Shown here: one piece after another, positions 19,194 to 32,012 of the stretch
How positions within the stretch are numbered: position 1 is the stretch's first letter
How the letters are laid out: every line of letters begins with the position of its first letter
Origin: Corynebacterium sp. HMSC29G08
GTDB taxonomy: Bacteria; Actinomycetota; Actinomycetes; Mycobacteriales; Mycobacteriaceae
Length of the DNA: 64,000 nt
Direction of reading: 5' to 3'
Assembly (NCBI RefSeq): GCF_001806875.1
Contig: NZ_KV786209.1
Span: 62,520 to 126,519, forward strand
Notes under the pieces: model-generated
What the model was told of the DNA's origin: nothing
What the model saw: only the letters and a program-made list of their open reading frames with translations
Database searches by the model: none
Position numbers and translations under genes: made by a program

Positions 19194-20753
19194 CTAGAAA
19201 GGCAGGGCGTCCTGGAGTTGCTGTGGCAGCAGCGGGCGCAGCATCGGCCACGAGATCACAGCGATCGCGCCAACGGTAGCCAAGACTCCAAGAACAATCC
19301 CCGCCGTTCGCACGGAATCCGAGGAGAGTGGCACCGGGATCGTCGGTTCTGGCAATGCGGGGCGGATCTTCTTGTCCGGGAACTTGCTGCGGGGCTCGAT
19401 GGATTCGAACAACTCGCCATGCTCGTCGCGCACGTTCGGGTAGAAGGTTTCCAAGCCGCGGACGCTGAACTGGGTTGCCATATAACGGCTGTTGTCACTG
19501 GTGTTCCACTGGGAGACAACAATGTCCATGTCATTGATGCTCGAGCCGGGGACAATGTAGCCGCCGTAGGGCTGCGACCAGTTCGTCGGCGTTTGGCTGT
19601 TGTCCCACTCGCCGTGCTTGGCAATAGCCACAGCGGGCACGTTGTTCCAATCAACAGCGATCTCTTTCGAGATGCGCACCTCAACCTGCAGGGTCGCTTC
19701 GTTGAACATGACGAGCACCCAGTTGCCGTCGATGTAGCGCAGGTTCATCTCACCTACCTGGATGGGAACCCCGTTAGCATCCTTTTCCATGATTGAGGTG
19801 CCGGTGCCGCCTTCGCCAGCCCAAGTGCCGTCATTAAGGTTGAGCATCTCCCAGGCGTCGCGGTCGGTGAGTTTCTCCGGCTTGACGCGGAAGAGGTACA
19901 TCGGCGCAGCGTGATTTCGTTCAAATGTCGTGGTGACGATGTAGACGAAGCCATCCGGACCCATATCCCACGACAACATCTCATCAAGACCCCGCGCGCT
20001 CGGCCTGTGTTTCATCGCGGAGTAGTAGTAGCCATCAGACTCCCAGGTCTGGCCTTGATCTTCAGAGCGCCAAAACTCCGACACCTCAGTGTTATGCAGC
20101 CCGTGGGTGCGCATCGTCTGCAGATAGAGCGTGCCGTTGATGTTGATAATGTCAGAAGGGATCATGGTGAGGTTGCCGTCACGCAGATACCCAATGGTCT
20201 GCTTGACGCGCTCACCCTTATTCAACGGGCGCTGAATGTCCACATAGCCGTTTTCATCACGTTTGGCCACGACACCGACAGGGCTCATCCACTCACCCTT
20301 GCCAACGGTATCGCCACGGAAGGAGTCACCAAAAATCATGGCGAACTCGCCCTCACTATTGATCGGCGCCATCATGCCCAAATCGCCCGAGCGGAAACCC
20401 ACGTGCTGCGAGTAGGGGCCGAGGATGTCCCCGAGAACCTGGACCGTGACATTCGGTTCTACCCTGCGCGGGGCAGCAACCCCCTGAGGGGCAGCGTTGC
20501 GCGAAAAAGGTTTGTCAAAGTACCCAAGGGCATCGCCCTTGTCAGCCGGGTCTGTGCCTTCTGTGCCCTCTTTATCCTCGGTGTCTTGGCTTTCAGAGGC
20601 TGTGTCGTTGCCCACCGGAATTTCAGGCTTCAGCGTTTCGTTTTCGGTGGACACCTCCTGCGCGTTGGCGGCTGGTGCGGCGGCTGCGGCCAGGGTGAGT
20701 GCCGAGACGGTTGCTGCGCTCAACAAGGCGCGGGAGGAGGCGTTGCGAAACAT
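19194..20753 (-). CDS. Secreted, membrane-anchored DUF4185 protein (candidate arabinan hydrolase)
   Basis: A 519-residue protein: signal peptide ending ANAQ, an acidic Thr/Glu/Asp-rich linker (residues ~30-75), a DUF4185 domain of beta-propeller type (GPYSQHVGFRSGDLGMMAPI, IFGDSFRGDTVG, WRSEDQGQTWE, DMDIVVSQWN), then a C-terminal transmembrane helix (TAGIVLGVLATVGAIAVISW). DUF4185 members include D-arabinan-degrading glycoside hydrolases (GH183) in mycobacteria, and corynebacteria carry arabinogalactan in their wall. Cell-wall arabinan remodelling is therefore a reasonable inference. I prefer the ATG at 20753 because the signal peptide begins there. Confidence 0.78.
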   Translation of the reverse strand: MFRNASSRALLSAATVSALTLAAAAAPAANAQEVSTENETLKPEIPVGNDTASESQDTEDKEGTEGTDPADKGDALGYFDKPFSRNAAPQGVAAPRRVEPNVTVQVLGDILGPYSQHVGFRSGDLGMMAPINSEGEFAMIFGDSFRGDTVGKGEWMSPVGVVAKRDENGYVDIQRPLNKGERVKQTIGYLRDGNLTMIPSDIININGTLYLQTMRTHGLHNTEVSEFWRSEDQGQTWESDGYYYSAMKHRPSARGLDEMLSWDMGPDGFVYIVTTTFERNHAAPMYLFRVKPEKLTDRDAWEMLNLNDGTWAGEGGTGTSIMEKDANGVPIQVGEMNLRYIDGNWVLVMFNEATLQVEVRISKEIAVDWNNVPAVAIAKHGEWDNSQTPTNWSQPYGGYIVPGSSINDMDIVVSQWNTSDNSRYMATQFSVRGLETFYPNVRDEHGELFESIEPRSKFPDKKIRPALPEPTIPVPLSSDSVRTAGIVLGVLATVGAIAVISWPMLRPLLPQQLQDALPF

Positions 20754-20863
20754 GAAACCCGATTTCTTGACAGCGAAATTTGATACAACTTGCAAGGATT
20801 CTCACTTTAACAAAAATGTCAAGGAAAGCGCGCCGCGAACCGTCCGGAAGTTTCAGTATCCGC

Positions 20864-20869
20864 TAGGGT
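20864..20869 (+). promoter_or_regulatory. -10 box (TAGGGT) of a leaderless formate dehydrogenase operon
   Basis: TAGGGT ends 7 bases before the ATG at 20877, leaving no room for a ribosome site. No clear FNR- or ArnR-type operator is seen in the 120 bases shared with the divergent DUF4185 gene. Confidence 0.5.
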
Positions 20870-20876
20870 GTGGTGC

Positions 20877-23800
20877 ATGTCTCGAATCAGTCCTCTCAAC
20901 TGGCCGGTAGTGCGCCAGCTACGCGGCGGTGACCTCTTCGCCCGCGGTGAGAACACTGAGTCTCGCCGCACGAAAGAAATGGAAGGGCGCACCATCGACG
21001 CTGACCGTGTGGTCAAAAGCGTGTGCCCGTACTGCGCTGTCGGTTGCGGCCAGAACGTCTATGTCAAAGATGGCAAGGTCATCCAGATTGAGGGTGACCC
21101 TGATTCCCCGCACTCCCGCGGGCGTCTGTGCCCGAAAGGTGCTGCCTCTGAGCAGCTGGTCAACGCTCCCAACCGCCTGACCGAGGTGCTCTACCGTGCG
21201 CCGAAGGCGACGGAGTGGCAGACGCTTGACCGTGAGACCGCGCTGGAGATGATCGCGGACCGTTTTTTGGAGGCCCGCAAGAACGGCTGGCAGGACACGG
21301 ACGAGCACGGCAACCCGGTTCGCCGCACCATGGGCATCGCTGGTCTTGGCGGTGCAGCCATGGACAATGAGGAAAACTATCTGATCAAGAAACTCTGGAC
21401 TGCCTCTGGCGCGGTGCAGATTGAAAATCAGGCCCGTATATGACACTCCTCCACGGTTCCCAGTTTGGGATCCTCGTTTGGCCGTGGCGGCGCGACCCAG
21501 CCGCTGCAGGATATGGCGAATGCGGACTGCATTGTCATTCAGGGGTCGAATATGGCCGAAGCACACCCGGTAGGCTTCCAGTGGGTGATTGAAGCCAAGA
21601 ATCGTGGCGCGCGGATTATCCACGTGGACCCGAGGTTCACGCGAACGTCTGCAATCGCCCACAAGCACATCCCGATCCGAGGTGGCTCGGATGTGGTGCT
21701 GCTTGGCGCGGTGATTAAGTACGTGCTGGACAATGAGCTCTACTTTGAGGATTTTGTCAAGGCATTTACCAATGCCTCTGTGATCATCAATGAGGACTTC
21801 CAGGACACGGAGGACCTTGAGGGCATCTTCTCTGGCTATGACCCGAAGACGGGTAAGTATGACAACTCCACGTGGCAGCCGAAGCTGGCTTGGGATGCGC
21901 AAGTGTCCTGGGACGTGCAGAAGGACGAGACGCTGCAGGACCCGAACTGTGTGTTCCAGATCCTGAAGCGTCACTACTCCCGCTACACCCCGGAGATGGT
22001 GGAGAAGTCCTGCGGTATTTCGCAGGAAGACTTCTACTACCTGGCTAACACCATTGCGGAGAACTCCGGCCGTGAGCGCACGACGTGCTTTGCCTACGCG
22101 CTGGGTTGGACGCAGCACACCATGGGTGCCCAGTTCATCCGAACTTGTGCGATCCTGCAGCTGCTCATGGGCAATGTGGGCCGTCCAGGCTCCGGCATTA
22201 TGGCGCTGCGTGGTCACGCGTCGATCCAGGGCTCGACTGACGTGCCGACGCTGTTCCACCTGCTGCCTGGCTACCTGCCGATGCCGCAGGCGGAGGTGCA
22301 GACCTGGGACCAGTACCTGGATACCGTGGCCGTGGCAGACCAAAAGGGTTTCTGGCAGAAGCGCGATAACTATTCGGTCTCCCTGATGAAGGCATACTGG
22401 GGCGATGCGGCCACCGAAGACAACAACTGGGGTATGGACCTCATGCCACGTCTGACCGGTGCGCACTCGACGTACCACACGCTGCAGCTGATGATGGATG
22501 GCAAGGTTGATGGCTACTTTGTGTTTGGCCAGAATCCGGCGGTGGCGCAGTCCAACGGCTTCATGCAGCGTATGGCGCTGTCCAAGCTGAAGTGGCTGGT
22601 GGTGCGTGACTTCCAAGAGATTGAGACGGCAACGTTCTGGAAGGATTCTCCGGAGGTTGCTTCCGGCGCGTTGGTGACCGAGGAGATTGACACCGAGGTC
22701 TTCTTGCTGCCTGCCGCGAACCACGTGGAAAAGGCCGGTACATTTACCCAGACGCAGCGTCTGCTGCAGTGGCGCTTCCAGGCGAAGCAGCCGCCAGGCG
22801 ATGCGGATAGTGATCTGCAGTTCTTCTACGAGCTGGGTCTGCGCCTGAAGGAGCGGGTGAAGGATTCTACTGACCCGCGTGACCTTCCGCTGCAGTCCAT
22901 CACCTGGGACTATGACTTGGATGCACACGGCGAAATCGATGCGGAGTCTGTGCTGCGCGAGATTAACGGCTACTTCCTCGAAGGCCCGCGCAAGGGACAG
23001 CTGGTGGATAGCTTTGCTGACCTGAAGGCAGACGGCACCACCTCGTCTGGGTGTTGGATTTACTCCGGCGTGTTCGCAGGAGGCGTGAACCGTTCCGCCA
23101 ATAAGCGACCTGGATCCGAGCAGGATGAGATGGCGCTTGATTGGGGCTGGGCGTGGCCGCTGAACCGTCGCGTGCTGTACAACCGTGCCTCGGCTGACGC
23201 GGACGGCAAGCCGTGGTCTGAGCGTAAGAAGCTGGTCTGGTGGAATGAAGACGCTGAGCGCTGGGAGTCGCCGGATGTGGTGGACTTCCCGGTAAACAAG
23301 GCGCCGGATTACAAACCGGACCGTGACGCTGTGGGCCCGGACGCATTGGCGGGCGATGATCCGTTCATCATGCAGCCGGACGGCAAGGGTTGGCTGTTTG
23401 CCCCGCGTGGCATGGTCGACGGCCCGATGCCGACACATTATGAGCCACAGGAGTCGCCATTCCCGAACTTCCTGTACACGCAGCAGCAGTCGCCGTCGCG
23501 AATTGTCATGCGTGGCCCGAACAACCTGTCTGCGCCGAACTACGGTGAGGAAGGCACAGAGGTCTACCCGTACATCCTGAACACCTACCGTTTGACGGAG
23601 ATGTACACCTCGGGTGCGATGACGCGAACGCTGCCATTCTTGGCGGAGCTGCAGCCAGAGCTGTTCTGCGAGGTTTCCCCGCAGCTGGCCGAGAAGGTTG
23701 GTTTGGAAAACGGTGGCTGGGCAACCTTGATTTCGCCGCGTGGCGTAATCGAGTCCCGCGTGCTGGTCACGGACCGCATTCAGTCCCTGACCATTGGGGA

Positions 23801-24140
23801 GCAGCAGTACGAGCAGATCGGCATGCCGTTCCACTACGGCCAAGGCAAGTACGCCGAGGTCAGCGGTGACGGGCCAAATGACCTGCTTGGCATCATGCTG
23901 GATCCAAACGTGAACATTCAGGCGTCCAAGGTGTCCGCGGTGGATATCCGCCCGGGCCGCCGTCCACGCGGTGCTGAACGCGATGCGCTGGTGCGTGAGT
24001 ACCAAAAACGTGCAGGCCTGACCGAGGACACTGGCTCCAAACTGGGCTCGCACGACGCAACCGCGTCGCCGGGATTAGACGATGAGCACACGGCGGAAGT
24101 GGATAACACGAAGCAGAATATGGCGGAGAGGGAAGGCTAG
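20877..24140 (+). CDS. fdnG: Selenocysteine-containing formate dehydrogenase, alpha subunit
   Basis: A 1087-residue molybdopterin/tungstopterin oxidoreductase whose codon 189 is UGA (21441-21443), read as selenocysteine. The context is IENQARI-Sec-HSSTVPSLGSSFGRGG, aligning with the Sec-His pair that ligates the metal in FdnG/FdoG. Upstream, Cys50-x2-Cys53-x3-Cys57 and Cys85 bind the [4Fe-4S] cluster (VCPYCAVGCGQ and GRLCPKG). Downstream are pterin-binding motifs such as QGSNMAEAHPVGFQW and the C-terminal molydopterin-dinucleotide domain. A SECIS-like hairpin follows the UGA. No hydrophobic twin-arginine signal is present; RR at residues 30-31 is not followed by a hydrophobic run, so a cytoplasmic orientation is likely. 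It oxidises formate to CO2 or the reverse. Automatic annotation will split it into a 188-residue piece and an 891-residue piece. Confidence 0.95.
21441..21487 (+). promoter_or_regulatory. Bacterial SECIS element (UGA plus stem-loop)
   Basis: Immediately 3' of the UGA, CCACGG (21451-21456) pairs perfectly with CCGTGG (21482-21487). Within it UCCC (21458-21461) pairs with GGGA (21467-21470), closing an AGUUU loop about 20 bases from the UGA. The spacing and a GU in the apical loop match the SelB-binding hairpin known from E. coli fdhF/fdnG. Confidence 0.8.
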
Positions 24141-24150
24141 GTACACGCCA

Positions 24151-25173
24151 ATGGCGAAGACGAACAGCATTACCGAAGCGCCACAGCACGTTGGCTACGA
24201 CCGCGCTGCGCGCAAGGCGTTCTTCACGGATACCTCGATTTGTATTGGCTGCAAGGCCTGCGAGGTGGCGTGTAAAGAGTGGAACCGCAACCCGCAGGAT
24301 GGCTACGAGTTGTCGGGTAATTCCTACGACAACACTGGCTCGCTCGGCGCGGATACGTGGCGCCACGTGGCGTTTATTGAGCAGAGCGAGGAACAGATCA
24401 CCATAGCCCGCGAAGAGGGCGCGAAGTTGGTCTCGCTGGGTATGCCGAGTGTTGGGGCAGGCGGCAACGCTGAAACCACGCAACCCGCACAGCCTGCGCA
24501 GTCTGTTACTCCGGGTGATACACCGGATTTCCGTTGGCTCATGTCCTCTGATGTGTGCAAGCACTGCACCAACGCGGGCTGCCTTGACGTGTGCCCGACA
24601 GGTGCGCTGTTTCGCACGGAGCACGGCACCGTGGTGGTGCAGGATGACGTGTGCAACGGTTGCGGCACCTGCGTGGCAGGCTGCCCGTTCGGCGTGATCG
24701 AGCGCCGTGAAGACGGCGGCGTGTCCAAGCGCGACGATCGCACGAAGCGTGGAGAAGACTTCACCGTTGGCGAGGTCGCGCCAATCAAGAACATCGGCGT
24801 GGCGCAGAAGTGCACGATGTGCTTTGACCGTCAGGCGATCGGGGAGGGTCCGGCGTGCGCCAAGACGTGCCCGACCACGTCGATTAAGTACGGCTCCTAT
24901 GACGAGATGCTGGCAACCGCCCAGGCACGCGTGAAGGAGCTACACGCCCAGGGCATGACGGAAGCGCGTCTGTATGGCGCCAACAGCGAGGACGGAGTTG
25001 GCGGTACAGGCTCAATCTTCTTGCTTTTGGACGCCCCAGAGGTCTACGGCCTGCCGCCGGACCCCCAGGTGCCAACTGCTAACTTGCCCACGATGGCCAA
25101 GCGTGCAGTCTTTGCAGCAGCCGGCTTGATTGGTGCGGTTGCGGGTGCATTTGTGATTGGAGGACGCAGCTAA
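24151..25173 (+). CDS. fdnH: Formate dehydrogenase iron-sulfur subunit
   Basis: A 340-residue electron-transfer subunit with four [4Fe-4S] cysteine groups: CIGCKACEVACKEW, VCKHCTNAGCLDVCP, VCNGCGTCVAGCP, and KCTMCFDR paired with GPACAKTCP. A single C-terminal transmembrane helix (FAAAGLIGAVAGAFVIGG) anchors it. It passes electrons from the selenoprotein to the membrane subunit. The ATG at 24151 begins 10 bases after the alpha-subunit stop. Compared with FdnH of E. coli it has an insertion rich in Ala/Gln/Pro/Thr around residues 105-120. Its TAA overlaps the ATG of the next gene by one base. Confidence 0.93.
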   Translation: MAKTNSITEAPQHVGYDRAARKAFFTDTSICIGCKACEVACKEWNRNPQDGYELSGNSYDNTGSLGADTWRHVAFIEQSEEQITIAREEGAKLVSLGMPSVGAGGNAETTQPAQPAQSVTPGDTPDFRWLMSSDVCKHCTNAGCLDVCPTGALFRTEHGTVVVQDDVCNGCGTCVAGCPFGVIERREDGGVSKRDDRTKRGEDFTVGEVAPIKNIGVAQKCTMCFDRQAIGEGPACAKTCPTTSIKYGSYDEMLATAQARVKELHAQGMTEARLYGANSEDGVGGTGSIFLLLDAPEVYGLPPDPQVPTANLPTMAKRAVFAAAGLIGAVAGAFVIGGRS

Positions 25174-26276
25174 TGGCAGAGTTTGATAGCTACCGGCCCC
25201 CGGAAGAGCCGCGCGGACCGAAGCGAAACCAGGGCAGTGGTAGTGGCGGTGCAAAACCGCGGGGCAAGAAACGGCGCCGTGGTGAAGAACTCATGGTGCC
25301 GAAAGCGGACTTCGCGCAGTATGACTCCTACTACGGCAAGCCAATTGTGAAGTTCCCGCCGTGGGAGTGGCCAATTGCCGGATACTTGTTCCTCGGCGGT
25401 GTAGCGGGCGGGTCGGCGCTTCTGGCCGTTGGCGCAGGGCTGACCGGCAACCGTGAGCTGCAGCGCAACACCCGACTGACCACTTTCGCGGCGGCAGGTT
25501 TGGGATCGAGCTTTCTGATTCTGGACCTAGGACGTCCGGAGCGGATGCTCCACATGTTCCGCGTGTTCAAACTGTCCTCGCCCATGAGCGTGGGTTCGTG
25601 GATTTTAGGCGCGTTCGGTTCAACCTCTGCGGTGCCTGCGATAGCTGAGGTGGACAAGCTCACAGGTGAGCGTTTGCCGTTGCCCGATTTCGCGCGTAGT
25701 TTGCTCCACTGGGCCGCCACTCCTGCTGGCGTGGCTACCGGTCTGCTCGGCGCGCCCCTTGCCGCGTACACAGCAGTGCTGTTGGGCAACACGTCAGTGC
25801 CGCTGTGGCAAGACGCGCACAAGGAACTGCCGGCGCTGTTTGTCTCCTCAGCAGCAGCTGCCTCCGCAGGAGCGGCGCTAGTGACTACGTCCACTAAGAA
25901 CAACGGTCCGGCACGTGTGCTGGGTGCCGTTGGTGCCGCGGCGGACATTCTCGCCTCCAAGAATGTGGAGCGTAACCTGCACGCGCCGCTGGAGGAGACG
26001 ATGCACGACGGCAAGGCTGGCAAGCTGCTCAAGGCCGCAGAGGCCTGCGTTATCGCCGGCGGTTTGGGTGCGCTCGTGGGTGGTCGAAACCGTGTCATCA
26101 CCGCACTTTCGGGTGCGGCACTCATGGCCGGTTCCTGCCTAACCCGCTTTGGCATTGTGCAAGCTGGGCATCAGTCCACGGAAGACCCGAAGTACGTCGT
26201 GGAGCCCCAGCGCGCCCGACTCAAGGAACGCCAGACCGCGGGCCAGGTCGGGGACTCAATCACCACAGTGCGCTAG
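25173..26276 (+). CDS. nrfD: NrfD/PsrC-type membrane subunit of formate dehydrogenase
   Basis: A 367-residue polytopic protein. A hydrophilic, basic N-terminus (residues 1-45, with KPRGKKRRRG) precedes about eight helices. FPPWEWPIAGYLFLGGVAGGSALLAVGA is the region diagnostic of NrfD, and LILDLGRPERMLHMFRVFKL and SPMSVGSWIL are further conserved parts. NrfD/PsrC proteins lack haem and bind quinone; they replace the cytochrome b556 (FdnI) of enterobacterial formate dehydrogenase. It is translationally coupled to fdnH (TAATG). The stop overlaps that of the convergent selD by 3 bases. Confidence 0.88.
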   Translation: MAEFDSYRPPEEPRGPKRNQGSGSGGAKPRGKKRRRGEELMVPKADFAQYDSYYGKPIVKFPPWEWPIAGYLFLGGVAGGSALLAVGAGLTGNRELQRNTRLTTFAAAGLGSSFLILDLGRPERMLHMFRVFKLSSPMSVGSWILGAFGSTSAVPAIAEVDKLTGERLPLPDFARSLLHWAATPAGVATGLLGAPLAAYTAVLLGNTSVPLWQDAHKELPALFVSSAAAASAGAALVTTSTKNNGPARVLGAVGAAADILASKNVERNLHAPLEETMHDGKAGKLLKAAEACVIAGGLGALVGGRNRVITALSGAALMAGSCLTRFGIVQAGHQSTEDPKYVVEPQRARLKERQTAGQVGDSITTVR

Positions 26277-27262
26277 CGCACGCGCACCCGCCCGGTGCCC
26301 GGTGCGGTTTCGCCGATGATGGGGTAGCCGGGCACTTCGCCGATGACGAGGAGGCCGCCGGACGTCTGGGCGTCTGCAAGCAAGAGCAGCGCCACCTCAT
26401 CTAGATCGGAGTCGACGTGTGGGCTGACCCAGTCCAGGTTGCGGCGCGAGCCGCCGGGGACGAAGCCGTCGCGGAGGGTTTCACGTGCGCCGTCGATAAA
26501 TGGCACAGCAGCGAAATCAATCACCGCGTCCACCTTGGAGGCGCGTGCCATCTTGTACAGGTGGCCGAGCAAGCCGAAGCCGGTGACATCGGTCGCTGCC
26601 TTCACACCAGCATCCACTGCTGCGCGCGAAGCGTCCCGGTTCAGGGTGGTCATTACGTCGACTGCCTGCTGGAACCACTCGCCGGTGGCCTTGTGACGGT
26701 TGTTTAACAAACCAGAGCCGATCGGCTTGGTCAGGGTAATCGGCAGCCCGGCCTCGGCGGAGTCGTTGCGCATCAGGCGCGCGGGGTCGGCGGTGCCGGT
26801 TGCGGCCATGCCGTAGATCGGCTCCGGTGCAGTAATGGAGTGTCCGCCGGTAACGGAAATGCCGGCTTCAGTTGCGGCGTCGAGCCCGCCGTGGAGGACT
26901 TCACGGATCAGTTCCTGCGGCAGGACTTCGCGCGGCCAGCCCAAAATATTCAGCGCGGTAATCGGGGTGCCGCCCATGGCGTAGACATCGCTCAGTGCGT
27001 TGACAGCTGCGATCTTGCCCCAGGTATACGCGTCATCCACCACGGGGGTGAAAAAGTCGGTGGTGGAGATAATCGCCAGGTCATCACGGACGCGGATGGC
27101 GGAGGCATCATCACCGTCGTCAAGACCAACGATCACGTTGGGGTCTGTAAAGCCAACCAAGCCGGCTACTGCGTCTTCGAGTTCACCGGGTGGGATTTTG
27201 CAGGCGCATCCACCACCTGCGGCGAATTGGGTGAGTCGGATTTCTGGGGCTGTTTTGCTCAT
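26273..27262 (-). CDS. selD: Selenophosphate synthase
   Basis: A 329-residue PurM-like synthetase that makes selenophosphate from selenide and ATP. The catalytic N-terminus GGGCACKIPP has Cys19 and Lys22, corresponding to Cys17 and Lys20 of E. coli SelD, so this SelD is a Cys form, not a selenoprotein. Further motifs are VGLDDGDDASAIRVRDDLAIISTTDFFTP (Asp cluster binding Mg-ATP), seen in parts, VNALSDVYAMGG and GGHSI. The ATG at 27262 lies 8 bases behind TACCAT. It is divergent from the tRNA-Sec gene (27 bases between) and convergent with the formate dehydrogenase operon. Confidence 0.95.
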   Translation of the reverse strand: MSKTAPEIRLTQFAAGGGCACKIPPGELEDAVAGLVGFTDPNVIVGLDDGDDASAIRVRDDLAIISTTDFFTPVVDDAYTWGKIAAVNALSDVYAMGGTPITALNILGWPREVLPQELIREVLHGGLDAATEAGISVTGGHSITAPEPIYGMAATGTADPARLMRNDSAEAGLPITLTKPIGSGLLNNRHKATGEWFQQAVDVMTTLNRDASRAAVDAGVKAATDVTGFGLLGHLYKMARASKVDAVIDFAAVPFIDGARETLRDGFVPGGSRRNLDWVSPHVDSDLDEVALLLLADAQTSGGLLVIGEVPGYPIIGETAPGTGRVRVR

Positions 27263-27288
27263 ACCGCTGTATGGTAGCGTCACGCGAC

Positions 27289-27383
27289 GGAGGCGTACGT
27301 GTCCTGGTGGGCGCCCCAGTCTTCAAAACTGGTGAGGTTGAGCATCTCAGCCTGGCAGGTTCGATTCCTGTCCGTCTCCGCCA
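27289..27383 (+). tRNA. selC: tRNA-Sec (anticodon UCA)
   Basis: A 95-nt tRNA, the same length as E. coli selC. The anticodon stem CCAGT/ACTGG closes the loop CTTCAAA with anticodon TCA. The D stem has six pairs (GTGTCC with GGGCGC, including G-U) and a four-base TGGT loop, diagnostic of tRNA-Sec. A long variable arm with a TGAG/CTCA stem follows, then T arm CAGG-TTCGATT-CCTG. Acceptor GGAGGCG pairs with CGTCTCC (one G-U); the eighth position is a T-C mismatch. Discriminator G73 and CCA are encoded. selA starts 22 bases downstream. Confidence 0.97.
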
Positions 27384-27404
27384 TAGTTTTTCGGGAGGTT
27401 TCGT

Positions 27405-28703
27405 TTGGATCCGCGCCGCAACATTCCCCGTACGGATGAGCTTTTATTGCTTGCCGACGCCACGTCGAACCTCTCAACCGCCACCCTCAAAGCCCTCGCG
27501 CACGATGTGCAGGCGGCTGCCCGCCGAGGCGAGATTTCGCCTGAGGATGTGCGCGACGTGTTTGTGGCGCGGGCGAACCAAGGCGCAACCACGCTGACTG
27601 CCGTGATCAACGCAACGGGCGTGGTGGTGCACACGAACGTGGGGCGTGCGCCCCTGTCGCCCGGCGCAGTGGAGGCGATGGCGCGCGCCGCGGGATATGT
27701 GGACGTGGAGATGGACCTGGACGCAGGCGTGCGTTCGCGTGAGCGCGGCAAGCAGGCAACGGATGCCTTGTTAGCTGCGTGCCCCGCCGCCGAAGATGCG
27801 CTGGTGGTGAACAACGGTGCCTCCGCGTTGCTGCTGGCAGCGGCAACGTTTGCTGAGGGCGGCGAGATGGTGATCTCTCGCGGTGAGCTCATTGAGATCG
27901 GTGCGGGTTTCCGCCTGCCGGAGCTGATTGAGTCTGCGCGCGTGCGTTTGGTGGAGGTCGGGGCGACGAACCGTACGCACCCGGCGGATTATGAACGCGC
28001 TCATGAGGCGAAGGCGATTCTGAAGGTGCATCCGTCGAACTATCGGGTGGAAGGGTTTACCGCGAGTGTGAGCGTGGCGCAGCTGCGCGAAATTGCGGAT
28101 GCTCATGGTCAGACGCTGATCGTAGATACCGGCTCTGGCCTTTTGGCATCTGACCCGTTGCTGCCGGATGAGCCGGACGCGACAACTGCGTTGAAGCAGG
28201 GGGCGGACGTTGTGTTGTTTTCCGGTGACAAGCTTTTGGGCGGCCCGCAGGCAGGCGTGATGTTGGGTACGCGTGAGGCGATTGCGAAGATGCGCAAGCA
28301 CCCCCTGGCGCGCGCGGTGCGCATTGACAAGTTGCGCTTGGCGGCGCTTGAGGCGACCATGCGCCTTGCCCATAATCCTACGCACGCGTACCTGCACGCG
28401 GACCTTGCTGTGTTGAAGCAGCGTACCGAGGCCCTAGCCGCCAAGGTGGCCTCCAAAGTAGAGGGCAGGGTTGTGGCGCACGATGGCCGCGTTGGGGGCG
28501 GGGGAGCGCCCGGCCACCCGTTGCCCGGCTATGCGGTGGAGCTGGATGAGTCGCTGGCAGCAGCGTTACGGCGCCACGATCCCGCTATTCTCGGCCGCAT
28601 CCACGGTGGGCGTTTACTTATTGATCTGCGTTGTGTGCCGGAAGACCAAGACGCGCTTGTTGCCGCCGCCATTGTTGAAGCCGCTGGTGAGGTGCACGCA
28701 TGA
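27405..28703 (+). CDS. selA: L-seryl-tRNA(Sec) selenium transferase
   Basis: A 432-residue PLP enzyme that converts Ser-tRNA(Sec) to Sec-tRNA(Sec) using selenophosphate. The PLP lysine is Lys276 in FSGDKLLGGPQAG, matching E. coli SelA. Other conserved parts are VINATGVVVHTNVGRAPLS, NNGASALLL and LIVDTGSGLL. The start codon is TTG with ribosome site GGGAGG 7 bases upstream; no better start exists because tRNA-Sec ends 22 bases before. The stop overlaps the selB start by 4 bases (ATGA). Confidence 0.97.
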   Translation: MDPRRNIPRTDELLLLADATSNLSTATLKALAHDVQAAARRGEISPEDVRDVFVARANQGATTLTAVINATGVVVHTNVGRAPLSPGAVEAMARAAGYVDVEMDLDAGVRSRERGKQATDALLAACPAAEDALVVNNGASALLLAAATFAEGGEMVISRGELIEIGAGFRLPELIESARVRLVEVGATNRTHPADYERAHEAKAILKVHPSNYRVEGFTASVSVAQLREIADAHGQTLIVDTGSGLLASDPLLPDEPDATTALKQGADVVLFSGDKLLGGPQAGVMLGTREAIAKMRKHPLARAVRIDKLRLAALEATMRLAHNPTHAYLHADLAVLKQRTEALAAKVASKVEGRVVAHDGRVGGGGAPGHPLPGYAVELDESLAAALRRHDPAILGRIHGGRLLIDLRCVPEDQDALVAAAIVEAAGEVHA

Positions 28704-30439
28704 GTTTCGTCGTTGCCACTGCAGGCCATGTTGATCACGGCAAGTCCACGCTGGTCAAGCGCCTCACAGGTATGGAGCCAGACCGCTGGGACGAGGAACG
28801 AAAACGCGGCCTGACCATTGATCTTGGGTTTGTGTGGGTTGGCGATATTGCCTTTGTGGACGTGCCGGGACATGAGCGTTTTATTGCCAACATGCTCGCT
28901 GGCGTGGGTCCCGCGCCCGCAGTGATGTTGGTCATCGCTGCTGATGAGGGGGTCAAAGAGCAGTCCAAGGACCACCTGGACGCCATCAACGCGTTTGGCA
29001 TCACTACCGGGGTGATTGCGATGTCGCGTGCGGATAATGCTGACCTGCAGCGCCGCGCCGAGGTGCGCCAACAGATCGCGCGTGAGGTCGCTGGCACCAC
29101 AGCGCAGGGCTGGCCGGTGGTGGAGGTGTCCGCGAAAACCGGTGAGGGGATCGGGGAACTCACCCGTACTCTCCACGAGGTGCTTGAGGCCGCACCGGCC
29201 CCGGACCCAGGCGCGCGGATCCGTTTTTGGGTGGATCGTGCTTTCAGCGTCAAAGGCGCGGGCACGGTGGTTACCGGCACGCTCACCGCTGGCACGATCC
29301 GACCGGGGGACGTGCTTGAACTGCGCGGTCAGCAGGTTCACGTGCGTTCCGTGCAGTCCGAGGACACTCCCATTGACGTGGCGCAACCGGCGATGCGCGT
29401 GGCACTGAACCTGCGTGGCATCGATGCCGAAAGTATCGGCCGCGGCGATGCCTTACTCACCCCGGGAGCTTGGCAGAGCACGCTGCTTATCGACGCCACG
29501 TTAACCACCCTAACCACCTCCCCCCTCCCACGCGAAGCCGTCGCTCACGTTGGTACCGCCAGCGTGGCGTGTGCCGTGCGGCTGCTGGGGAAGAAGCACG
29601 TGCGCCTGAGCTTTGAGTTGCCGCTGCCGCTCAAGATCGGCGACACGGTAGTGTTGCGAGGCTCCGGCGAGCAGCACATCCTGGCTGGTGCTCGAGTGGT
29701 GGACGCGGATCCGCCGGCCTTTCTCCGGCGCGGGGATGCCGCGCGCCGCGCAGAAGCTTTGCCCACGTTGCCGGACCTTGGCGCCGAGATTACCCGCCGC
29801 GTGGCCGTGACCCCGGCGCACCTGGCGCGGCTGGGCTACGACGTACCCGAGGAGCCCCCTGCGGGCACAATTGCGTTTGCTGGTTACTGGATTCAAGCCA
29901 GTCAAGTCATGGCTTGGAGGAACGCCCTGCTTGAAGCCGTTGCAGAACATGAGCGGGTGAATCCGTTGTCGGCGGGGATGGGGGTTGCGGAGGGCGTGGA
30001 TAAGCTAAAGCTCCCCGATGCCAAGCTGCTGCCACTGGCTGCCGCCGCGGCAAAACTGACGGTAGCCGAAGGGCTGATTTCGACTGGCCGCACTCTGGAT
30101 TTGGGCGAGGGGATAGCCAAGCTGGAGGAGCACCTGCACGCCTGGCCGTTTGCCGCGCCCGAGGCCGCTGACCTTGCGGCGTGGGGGGTGGGCGATAAGG
30201 AGCTGGCGGCAGCCGAGCGTGCTGGGCGCATTGTGCGGATTGCTGACGGTGTGGTGTTGCTTGCCAACGCCCCCGCCAAAGCCGCCGCGCTTCTCCAAGC
30301 ATTGGAGCAGCCGTTTTCAGCTTCCGACGCCCGCAAAGCGTGGGGCACGACGCGGCGCGTGGCAATTCCGCTGTTAGAGATGCTTGACGCGCGCGGCTTG
30401 ACCCGTCGCATCGACGGCACCGCGCGCGTTGTGCGCTAG
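28700..30439 (+). CDS. selB: Selenocysteine-specific elongation factor
   Basis: A 579-residue GTPase delivering Sec-tRNA(Sec) to UGA codons. G1 is GHVDHGKST (residues 8-16), G2 region GLTIDLGFVW, G3 DVPGHE. The G4 motif is degenerate: MSRADNAD where canonical factors have NKxD. EF-Tu-like beta-barrel domains follow (TGTLTAGTIRPGD). The C-terminal ~200 residues form the winged-helix repeats that bind SECIS RNA, with the end segment RRVAIPLLEMLDARGLTRR. It is the last gene of the tRNA-Sec/selA/selB unit. Confidence 0.95.
   Translation: MSFVVATAGHVDHGKSTLVKRLTGMEPDRWDEERKRGLTIDLGFVWVGDIAFVDVPGHERFIANMLAGVGPAPAVMLVIAADEGVKEQSKDHLDAINAFGITTGVIAMSRADNADLQRRAEVRQQIAREVAGTTAQGWPVVEVSAKTGEGIGELTRTLHEVLEAAPAPDPGARIRFWVDRAFSVKGAGTVVTGTLTAGTIRPGDVLELRGQQVHVRSVQSEDTPIDVAQPAMRVALNLRGIDAESIGRGDALLTPGAWQSTLLIDATLTTLTTSPLPREAVAHVGTASVACAVRLLGKKHVRLSFELPLPLKIGDTVVLRGSGEQHILAGARVVDADPPAFLRRGDAARRAEALPTLPDLGAEITRRVAVTPAHLARLGYDVPEEPPAGTIAFAGYWIQASQVMAWRNALLEAVAEHERVNPLSAGMGVAEGVDKLKLPDAKLLPLAAAAAKLTVAEGLISTGRTLDLGEGIAKLEEHLHAWPFAAPEAADLAAWGVGDKELAAAERAGRIVRIADGVVLLANAPAKAAALLQALEQPFSASDARKAWGTTRRVAIPLLEMLDARGLTRRIDGTARVVR
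29485..29497 (+). repeat. Dispersed oligonucleotide GCTTATCGACGCC
   Basis: Exact copy of the recurring 13-mer, inside selB (frame L-L-I-D-A). The flanking GGGC half is absent here. Confidence 0.45.
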
Positions 30440-30467: not shown

Positions 30468-30890
30468 TTACACAGCGTCGTGCTCGTTCGGATCATTGTC
30501 CGCATCCGCCTTGGTCTCGTGGCGAGTCCCCGGCTTGTGCTCCGGAGCTGCGTAAATGGAGTAGAGCTTCGCCGGCTTGTCTGACTCATTGACAAAGTTG
30601 TGGTACTTGCCGGACGGCACGAACGCTGCCCAGTCTGCGCCCACAACCTGGTCAATCTCAAGGTTGTCCTTGCTTTGGCCGATCTGTGCGCGCAGCTCGC
30701 CCTCTTCGAGGCGGAGGAACTGATCGTGACCCTCGTGGATCTCAGCGCCGATCTCGCCGCCAGCCGGGATGGTCATAACCGTAAGCTGCAGGTGTTTACC
30801 GGTCCACAGGGTGTCACGGAAAGCCTCATTTTCCAATGTGGCCTTCTCAATATCTACTACGTACGGGTTAGGTCCTTTATCGTTGCTCAT
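30468..30890 (-). CDS. Cupin-domain protein
   Basis: A 140-residue single cupin. Motif 1 appears as GGEIGAEIHEGHDQFLRLEEGE (metal-binding His-x-Gly-His and Glu) and motif 2 as PSGKYHNFVN. It resembles the small cupins with a charged C-terminal tail (HKPGTRHETKADADND). The ATG at 30890 is 7 bases behind TACGGT (leaderless). No enzymatic activity can be assigned. It converges on selB with a 28-base gap that contains a GGCGC/GCGCC hairpin but no T-tract. Confidence 0.85.
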   Translation of the reverse strand: MSNDKGPNPYVVDIEKATLENEAFRDTLWTGKHLQLTVMTIPAGGEIGAEIHEGHDQFLRLEEGELRAQIGQSKDNLEIDQVVGADWAAFVPSGKYHNFVNESDKPAKLYSIYAAPEHKPGTRHETKADADNDPNEHDAV

Positions 30891-30914
30891 GGGTACCACC
30901 GTACGCGTCTTTGC

Positions 30915-32012
30915 CTACTTGCGGTGCCGACCAACCTCGACAGCAACCCGCTCGCGGCGCCTGAGCTGTACCTTCTCAATTTCTGTGAGGTAGCCGCCGG
31001 AACCTTGCCACCCGATTTCGGGCTTTTCCTTAACGACGGCACGCTCCCGCACCTCTACCGGCTTGTCTTCCGGCTTGTCTGCCGGAAGTTTATCTTCCGG
31101 TTTATCTTCCGGACGCTCCACCTTGGTAAACATCTGCGTCGGTGGGGCGACATCGTCGGGGCGGTCCTGACCCGTCAGCGACACGTATCGTGCCCTGTAG
31201 TGTGGCCGGACCGTGTCTTCGGGGTCCGTGGCAAAGGGGCGCTCCACCGTGATCGCCCATGATCCGTCGGGGAAGTCTACGAGTGACCACGGGGTAGTAG
31301 GTGTTGTGTCTGGGACCTTCAGCACCGGGATTGTCTGCAGACCCTCAGCTGGGGCGCCGGCATTGAGCGCAGCCATGCCCTCCAACAGCACGGCACGTGC
31401 GTACAGCGGGGCGCCCGCTTCTTCGATGTAGGCAAGGAGTTCCTTGGCATCTTTGGCAGCGAAGCCACCGAGTGCCTTGCCGTTGAGCGTGACAGCAACC
31501 GTGCCCGCCAGCGGACGCAACGCAACAAACCAGATGCCGGGGGAGAGTGCGACGAGCTCGTCAGCACTGAACTCTCCTTTGGCGGTATCCACCACAATCA
31601 TGTCCCCAGGCGGTAGCACTAGCGCACCTTCTGGAGGATCGTTGCGAGGCACCGTAAGTTCGGGCGGCGGCAGAATAATCTTGGCCCGAAACAGGCCGGT
31701 CTGGTTATCAAAACGAATCTCTGCGACCGTGGTTGGCATCAACAGCGAGGCCTCAATGCGTTGCATCTCCGGGTAACGCTCGCGGTGCGCAGCGGCGACT
31801 TCCCCTAGGACCCTGCCCTGGGTGCGGTCATGGCCCACCCGGCGTACCCGCCACGATCCGTTGAGCGGATTCGGGTGGAGCAGGACTGGCAAAAATGCTG
31901 ATTTTTTCGTGGCCCCAAACTCTTCAAAAAGGGGAGCTTGGATCACGCTGGCGAGCTCAATTTCCTCGCCAGCACCCCATATCGACGGTGCGAGAGAGTA
32001 GAGCCTGTCCAT
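30915..32012 (-). CDS. Hypothetical protein with PEDKP-type repeat
   Basis: A 365-residue protein I do not recognise. It has no signal peptide or membrane helix. The N-terminal part is folded-looking (SIWGAGEEIELASVI, then VGHDRTQGRVLGEVAAAHRE). Around residues 302-320 is a short charged repeat built from PEDKP and PADKP units, followed by a basic C-terminus (RRRERVAVEVGRHRK). The ATG lies 6 bases behind TAAGCT (leaderless). The next gene on the strand, DUF808, ends 10 bases upstream of this start, so read-through is likely. Confidence 0.65.
   Translation of the reverse strand: MDRLYSLAPSIWGAGEEIELASVIQAPLFEEFGATKKSAFLPVLLHPNPLNGSWRVRRVGHDRTQGRVLGEVAAAHRERYPEMQRIEASLLMPTTVAEIRFDNQTGLFRAKIILPPPELTVPRNDPPEGALVLPPGDMIVVDTAKGEFSADELVALSPGIWFVALRPLAGTVAVTLNGKALGGFAAKDAKELLAYIEEAGAPLYARAVLLEGMAALNAGAPAEGLQTIPVLKVPDTTPTTPWSLVDFPDGSWAITVERPFATDPEDTVRPHYRARYVSLTGQDRPDDVAPPTQMFTKVERPEDKPEDKLPADKPEDKPVEVRERAVVKEKPEIGWQGSGGYLTEIEKVQLRRRERVAVEVGRHRK

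Follow-up and report, generated by a model that had tools for sequence, protein, structure and literature searches.

Here we analysed a stretch of 64,000 nucleotides from Corynebacterium sp. HMSC29G08 (contig NZ_KV786209.1, positions 62,520 to 126,519; hereafter the window), in which a 9.6-kb block at positions 20877-30439 carries the genes of a formate dehydrogenase together with those of a selenocysteine (Sec) decoding system. The block comprises fdnG, fdnH, the gene of an NrfD-type membrane subunit, selD on the opposite strand, the gene of the selenocysteine tRNA (tRNA-Sec), selA and selB (Table 1). A first-pass annotation, made from the letters alone, had described it as a complete Sec-decoding module next to its client, and every part that it named was recovered at its position from the open reading frames (ORFs), ARAGORN, Rfam, NCBIfam and Pfam. 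The frame of fdnG holds a single TGA, at the codon that the annotation had pointed out, and is otherwise open across 1087 codons, so that taking this TGA as a stop splits the gene into two ORFs (20868-21443 and 21465-24140). The score of FdnG clears the threshold of 1400 bits set for NF041513, the family of actinobacterial formate dehydrogenases, and FdnG, SelD, SelA and SelB are each above the curated NCBIfam cut-offs.

Table 1. Features of the formate dehydrogenase and selenocysteine block and of its two flanks (window positions)
Feature	Positions	Strand	Remarks
fdnG, formate dehydrogenase catalytic subunit	20877..24140	+	1087 aa, predicted Sec at residue 189; NCBIfam NF041513 1752.8 bits, TIGR01553 936.4 bits
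Predicted Sec codon, in-frame TGA (codon 189 of fdnG)	21441..21443	+	TGA in 80/80 loci of relatives
Predicted SECIS hairpin	21455..21473	+	Stem 21455-21462 with 21466-21473, one U-U mismatch, loop GUU; 11 nt past the TGA
fdnH, iron-sulfur subunit	24151..25173 (open frame from 24082)	+	Fer4 domains; probable start, from alignments; TIGR01582 164.1 bits, cut-off 334.7
Membrane subunit, NrfD type	25173..26276	+	PF03916 72.6 bits; four transmembrane-like stretches at the threshold used
selD, selenophosphate synthetase, Cys form (GGGCACK)	26273..27283	-	TIGR00476 390.9 bits, cut-off 125
selC, tRNA-Sec, anticodon UCA	27289..27383	+	ARAGORN; Rfam RF01852 74.9 bits
selA, Sec synthase	27405..28703	+	TIGR00474 396.9 bits, cut-off 267.9
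selB, Sec-specific elongation factor	28700..30439	+	TIGR00475 284.2 bits, cut-off 242.25; C-terminal SelB-wing_3 PF09107, residues 532-573
Left flank, DUF4185 protein, outside the module	19194..20795	-	PF13810; borders the presence/absence polymorphism
Right flank, cupin protein, outside the module	30468..30899	-	PF07883; borders the presence/absence polymorphism

The tRNA-Sec reported by ARAGORN has 95 nt and a TCA anticodon, and the covariance model RF01852 matches it over 27289-27379, well above the cut-off of 47 bits and with the 6-bp D stem and long arms of the family model, in agreement with the tRNA described in the annotation. This is the sole RF01852 match above cut-off in the 2.41-Mb genome. 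The features by which the bacterial Sec-decoding trait is recognized are thus all found here, namely a tRNA-Sec with a UCA anticodon, SelA, SelB and SelD above their cut-offs, and an adjoining UGA-containing client whose homologues have either Cys or UGA at the same place. Two details of the annotation were revised. The fdnH gene is present, with a start more probably at 24151 than at 24082, the alignments with the nine other occupied loci beginning at residue 24 in seven, at residue 22 in one and at residue 1 in one; and the name fdnI is unsuitable for the third subunit because this protein is of the NrfD type.

As to the possibility, raised in the annotation, of a Cys codon at 21441-21443, comparison between genomes shows the codon to be TGA in all of the 80 related loci (29 from Corynebacterium and 51 from other Actinobacteria). 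Among 40 of these loci scanned with ARAGORN, 38 had a tRNA-Sec within the locus, the two without being those of C. tapiri (L091; the tRNA lies farther away, G215) and Brevibacterium album (L122). The closest named relative is C. riegelii, with an FdnG 98% identical to that of the window. In a search of database proteins, in which the 7996 candidates sharing most words were scored and 120 listed, all 68 full-length relatives among those listed had Cys at the position of residue 189. These Cys-type actinobacterial enzymes (Streptomyces, Actinomadura and others) are full-length homologues with about 56-62% identity and the same motif around the residue. The other 52 of the 120 listed are short entries (<1000 aa; for example an 875-aa formate dehydrogenase of C. 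riegelii), all of which start after residue 189, an annotation fault that bears out the warning that standard gene calling splits fdnG.

A candidate SECIS hairpin behind the UGA codon

Beginning 11 nt past the UGA we found a hairpin, GGUUCCCAGUUUGGGAUCC, that the first-pass annotation had not named and that we propose as the selenocysteine insertion sequence (SECIS). Its isolated fold has an energy of -7.7 kcal/mol, equalled by 5 of 200 shuffles. The published limits for a bacterial SECIS (bSECIS) comprise a loop of 3-9 nt with G within its first two positions, an upper stem of 4-16 bp, 16-37 nt from UGA to loop and an energy of at most -7.5 kcal/mol (PMC13188914). The hairpin lies within them, with its 3-nt loop GUU (G first), 5 bp above the mismatch and 19 nt between UGA and loop, the energy being barely inside the limit.

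To examine its conservation we aligned 81 rows, comprising the window and the 80 actinobacterial loci, and RNAalifold, run on 44 of these sequences, selected the identical hairpin. Pair 21-27 reads CG in 62 of the 81 rows and TA in the other 19, with no mixed combination, the pair 18-30 is TA in 72, CG in 3 and TG in 6, and the loop is GTC in 43 and GTT in 38 with nothing else. The codons inside the hairpin are constrained as well: wherever a Ser is encoded (73 rows) the codon is AGT, which accounts for 5.0% of the Ser codons in the surrounding frame, the other eight rows having Gly GGT at this position, and Val is encoded by GTT in 78 of the 81 rows, a codon that makes up 7.6% of the Val codons around it. 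Of the cells in the 43 distinct rows 94.8% were paired, shuffles reaching 89.0% and slid controls 25.0-62.5%, and 24 cells showed a double change against 6.6 in shuffles. None of 500 shuffles matched the observed paired fraction, the double-change cells or the covariation score.

Several observations weigh against the hairpin. Two of the five covariation measures were not exceptional, since the number of pairs with a double change (3 of 8, against 2.3) was reached in 177 of 500 shuffles and that of further pair types (10, against 9.0) in 121 of 500. The fold of the 55 nt past the UGA does not exceed its shuffles in stability (z -0.78), U is mismatched with U at stem position 17-31 in the window, as in 12 of the 81 rows, and the bottom stem pair is unpaired in 13 of the 81. 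In addition, because the rows are related to one another, the shuffles overstate significance. As a predicted element the hairpin agrees with the bacterial SECIS model in print, and over the 81 actinobacterial rows it is maintained through compensatory substitutions and rarely used synonymous codons.

Distribution over the genus and history of the locus

Analysis of 242 Corynebacterium genomes with the Rfam model identified tRNA-Sec in 78, and the UGA-containing fdnG (E up to 1e-100), selB and selD (both E up to 1e-40) were found in exactly these 78. The annotation had supposed the trait to be uncommon in Corynebacterium; with 78 of 242 genomes, the Sec machinery is not rare in the genus. In each of the 78 genomes with the gene, fdnG contains a TGA, none of the four components occurs singly in the other 164, and a formate dehydrogenase of this kind is absent from those 164 in any form at E up to 1e-100. 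The selA gene was checked in the 13 occupied blocks described below and in eight odd genomes, and was present in all. Client and tRNA-Sec share one contig and one strand, with the client upstream, in 77 of the 78 genomes (the exception, G204, has them on separate contigs). The gap between them is 3.1-6.6 kb in 74 genomes and reaches 12.5 kb in G232, 16.9 kb in G215 and 28.1 kb in G040; where the fdnG match was split (G013, G069, G131, G199, G207, G212 and G217) it was re-measured at 3.1-3.8 kb.

To follow the history of the locus we compared sites with and without the block. The DUF4185 and cupin genes that border it lie close together in 38 genomes, at a distance of 9.7-11.0 kb in the 11 with the trait and of 139-1387 bp in the 27 without, and neither the remaining cupin rows from genomes with DUF4185 nor the DUF4185 row of G094 contributed an additional genome within 60 kb. 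Five of the 27 (G059, G112, G171, G186 and G223), in which the flank genes stand in another order, were left out, giving 22 empty sites; two genomes with no cupin match (G067 and G158) joined the 11 to give 13 occupied ones. The comparison hence covers 35 of the 242 genomes, the other 65 Sec-positive genomes, which do not have both flanks near the block, being outside it. A single gene order, fdnG-fdnH-NrfD-selD-selA-selB, was found throughout the 13 occupied sites. No sel or fdn remnant was detected in the 22 empty sites at E up to 1e-5, nor in 15 of them at 1e-3.

Trees were midpoint-rooted and read without support values, the flank genes serving as a stand-in for the species tree. Presence and absence of the block required four changes on the tree of four flanking proteins, with 'present' as the Fitch root state, while labels shuffled 500 times required 10.8 on average and never fewer than 7. 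For the 13 genomes, the distances in the module tree and those in the flank tree were correlated at 0.947, a value that none of 2000 permutations equalled, and the fdn tree and the sel tree were correlated at 0.969. These results fit a block that would have been inherited in place and lost as a whole about four times.

Clean empty sites in 22 genomes are also what would be seen if the block were a horizontally mobile cassette that had entered the space separating the DUF4185 gene from the cupin gene only recently. The block is richer in G+C (62.6%) than the adjacent 10-kb stretches (59.0 and 59.5%), which points in the same direction, as does the transfer of Sec genes together with formate dehydrogenase among Actinobacteria described in an earlier study (PMC5029168). 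This G+C content, however, exceeds the mean of the window by just about one standard deviation, and no mobility gene is found among the genes of the block. The same site is occupied in 13 genomes, and both the congruence of the protein tree with the flanks and the few changes on the flank tree stand against recent insertion, which we therefore consider improbable and rejected as the principal explanation. Because the module tree follows the flank tree, we favour vertical inheritance, with the block cleanly lost about four times, over movement. Of the two fates that the annotation had proposed for the block as a unit, loss is thus upheld, in part, by the whole and the empty sites, and movement is not supported, at least in this clade.

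At the borders of the polymorphism, the DUF4185 protein is less conserved than the module (76% identity to C. riegelii and 44-55% in the other matches listed). The cupin gene is adjoined by that of a 365-aa protein without Pfam match (30915-32012, minus strand). In 10 of the 35 genomes compared, the gene of this protein is found instead between those of the DUF4185 and cupin proteins. Scans for terminators (7 sites against 8.4 in shuffles) and for promoters (3 against 1.7) were not taken as evidence, and PADLOC gave no match for the two proteins submitted.

The search for further selenoproteins

The annotation had regarded formate dehydrogenase as the only selenoprotein visible here, and no second one was seen in the searches that we ran, which are not a full survey. 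The SECIS model recovered from the genome of this strain only the known site (70 bits), the next match having 16.8 bits (E 1.2); because this model was trained on this one gene, it would miss other SECIS types. No internal stops were found in the four AhpC/TSA matches and the one DsbA match of the genome, and among its molybdopterin oxidoreductase matches a TGA was present in fdnG alone. A second molybdopterin oxidoreductase of the genome (G000:C59:64325-66507) has no internal stops. A search of the same genome for selenouridine synthase gave nothing above cut-off, which suggests that SelD serves Sec only. SelD itself is a Cys form with GGGCACK in its sequence, as annotated; the catalytic residue is likewise Cys (GGGCACK) in all six further selD genes read of the 78, the window's own making a seventh. 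A Sec form of SelD in G013 and G217 was considered and rejected, the TGA within the selD match lying before the ATG and the residue being Cys.

Proposed mechanism and meaning for the genus

In bacterial Sec insertion the roles of SelA, SelB, SelC and SelD are established. In the system proposed here SelD would make selenophosphate, SelA would convert Ser-tRNA-Sec to Sec-tRNA-Sec, and SelB with GTP would bind the predicted hairpin and bring Sec-tRNA-Sec to the UGA that it marks, where the ribosome would read codon 189 as selenocysteine. Sec 189 would likely be the metal ligand of the molybdenum or tungsten (Mo/W) site, and the electrons from formate, whose oxidation is the predicted activity of this enzyme, would pass through FdnH and the NrfD-type subunit to the quinone pool. 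FdnH has one C-terminal transmembrane-like helix (residues 319-337, numbered from 24151). No signal like those of the twin-arginine translocation (Tat) pathway was seen in FdnG, in which hydropathy over 15 residues is at most 0.95 in the first 75 aa with no transmembrane-like stretch, and for this reason the catalytic subunit is probably placed on the cytoplasmic side of the membrane. In E. coli, FdnG carries a Tat signal, the complex includes a cytochrome b subunit and the sel genes lie apart from one another. Our FdnG shares with FdnG-FdnH-FdnI of E. coli the family match to TIGR01553 and a bacterial-type Sec machinery, and differs in lacking a Tat-like signal and in having the NrfD-type subunit instead.

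Taking all the results together, we consider the block to be, with a probability of about 95%, a single-client Sec module in which UGA 189 would be read as selenocysteine in a membrane-bound formate dehydrogenase, Sec at residue 189 being predicted from sequence comparison. The doubts about the hairpin given above speak against this conclusion. FdnH and the NrfD-type subunit fall below their own NCBIfam cut-offs, their identification having been made through Pfam. Recoding in general competes with termination (PMC4513850), and one may ask whether the UGA mostly terminates, the two halves being separate products and the Sec machinery a relic; the synonymous constraint on the hairpin and the exact co-occurrence of client, tRNA-Sec, selB and selD argue for selection for recoding, however, and make this very unlikely. 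The splitting of the gene into two ORFs and the truncated database calls might suggest that the gene is dead and the UGA a nonsense mutation, or that the UGA arose through an error in sequencing. Given the TGA shared by all related loci and all 78 genomes of the genus, the otherwise open frame, and the retention of the hairpin and of all sel genes, both can be dismissed with near certainty.

Similar modules have been described before. In C. aurimucosum ATCC 700975 the same cluster (cauri_0962-0968) was published in 2010, with fdnG and its internal UGA, fdxH, selD, selC, selA and selB in one chromosomal region and a reading of the protein as a selenoenzyme; a figure legend marks the UGA and selC, and in the available text SECIS is mentioned once, in general terms and with no element named (PMC2830990). 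In our comparison this locus (L090), from a sister species whose FdnG is about 68% identical, shows the hairpin and the tRNA-Sec besides the TGA at codon 189. The actinobacterial modules outside the genus (Kocuria, Arthrobacter, Brevibacterium, Mycobacterium and others) have FdnG proteins 63-66% identical to ours. All 51 loci examined show TGA at this codon and the hairpin, and 10 of the 11 that were scanned include a tRNA-Sec. Peng et al. describe how the Sec trait was transferred with formate dehydrogenase being its sole selenoprotein, Arthrobacter being among the recipients, and Sec genes close to formate dehydrogenase or in one operon with it in most donors and recipients (PMC5029168). A patchy presence of Sec within genera is reported by Romero et al. 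(PMC1273633). A literature search, with subscription journals mostly outside its reach, found no survey of the Sec trait over the genus Corynebacterium. The find is hence sound but ordinary, the cluster having been published for a sister species and being present in 78 of 242 genomes; the SECIS evidence, that count and the comparison of occupied and empty sites are what the present analysis adds.

In our opinion the balance tips only slightly toward Sec being, genus-wide, an all-or-none and essentially one-enzyme trait, in which machinery and client are never apart in 242 species, no Cys client provides an escape, and each loss would have removed Sec and the enzyme together, at least four clean times at one site. 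A number of genomes speak against the reading of the block as a single-client module. Other DNA, with other open frames, lies between the fdn genes and selD in G232 (about 9 kb), G215 (about 14 kb) and G040 (about 25 kb), and G105 (L193) has two copies of the UGA-containing fdnG about 10 kb apart, because of which the tight one-client block is not universal. A further in-frame TAG was found in fdnG in two of the 78 genomes, G142 (L194, match codon 373) and G232 (L168, match codon 492), and the tRNA-Sec of G232 was unreported by ARAGORN and has the lowest Rfam score of the 78 (66.6 bits). In G142 and G232, which have either decaying modules or assembly errors, selD and selA are uninterrupted and selB was partly seen. 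In G105 each fdnG copy has its own fdnH and NrfD-type subunit, upstream of a single selD, tRNA-Sec and selA.

The gene cluster itself is expected, and its usefulness lies in the comparison. With 78 genomes having and 164 lacking the trait, an exact co-occurrence of its components and a locus known in occupied and empty states, the genus offers a clean set-up on selection for Sec serving mainly one enzyme. If the genus-wide pattern is true, Corynebacterium may be seen as a natural deletion series for the question of why Sec is kept for a single enzyme.

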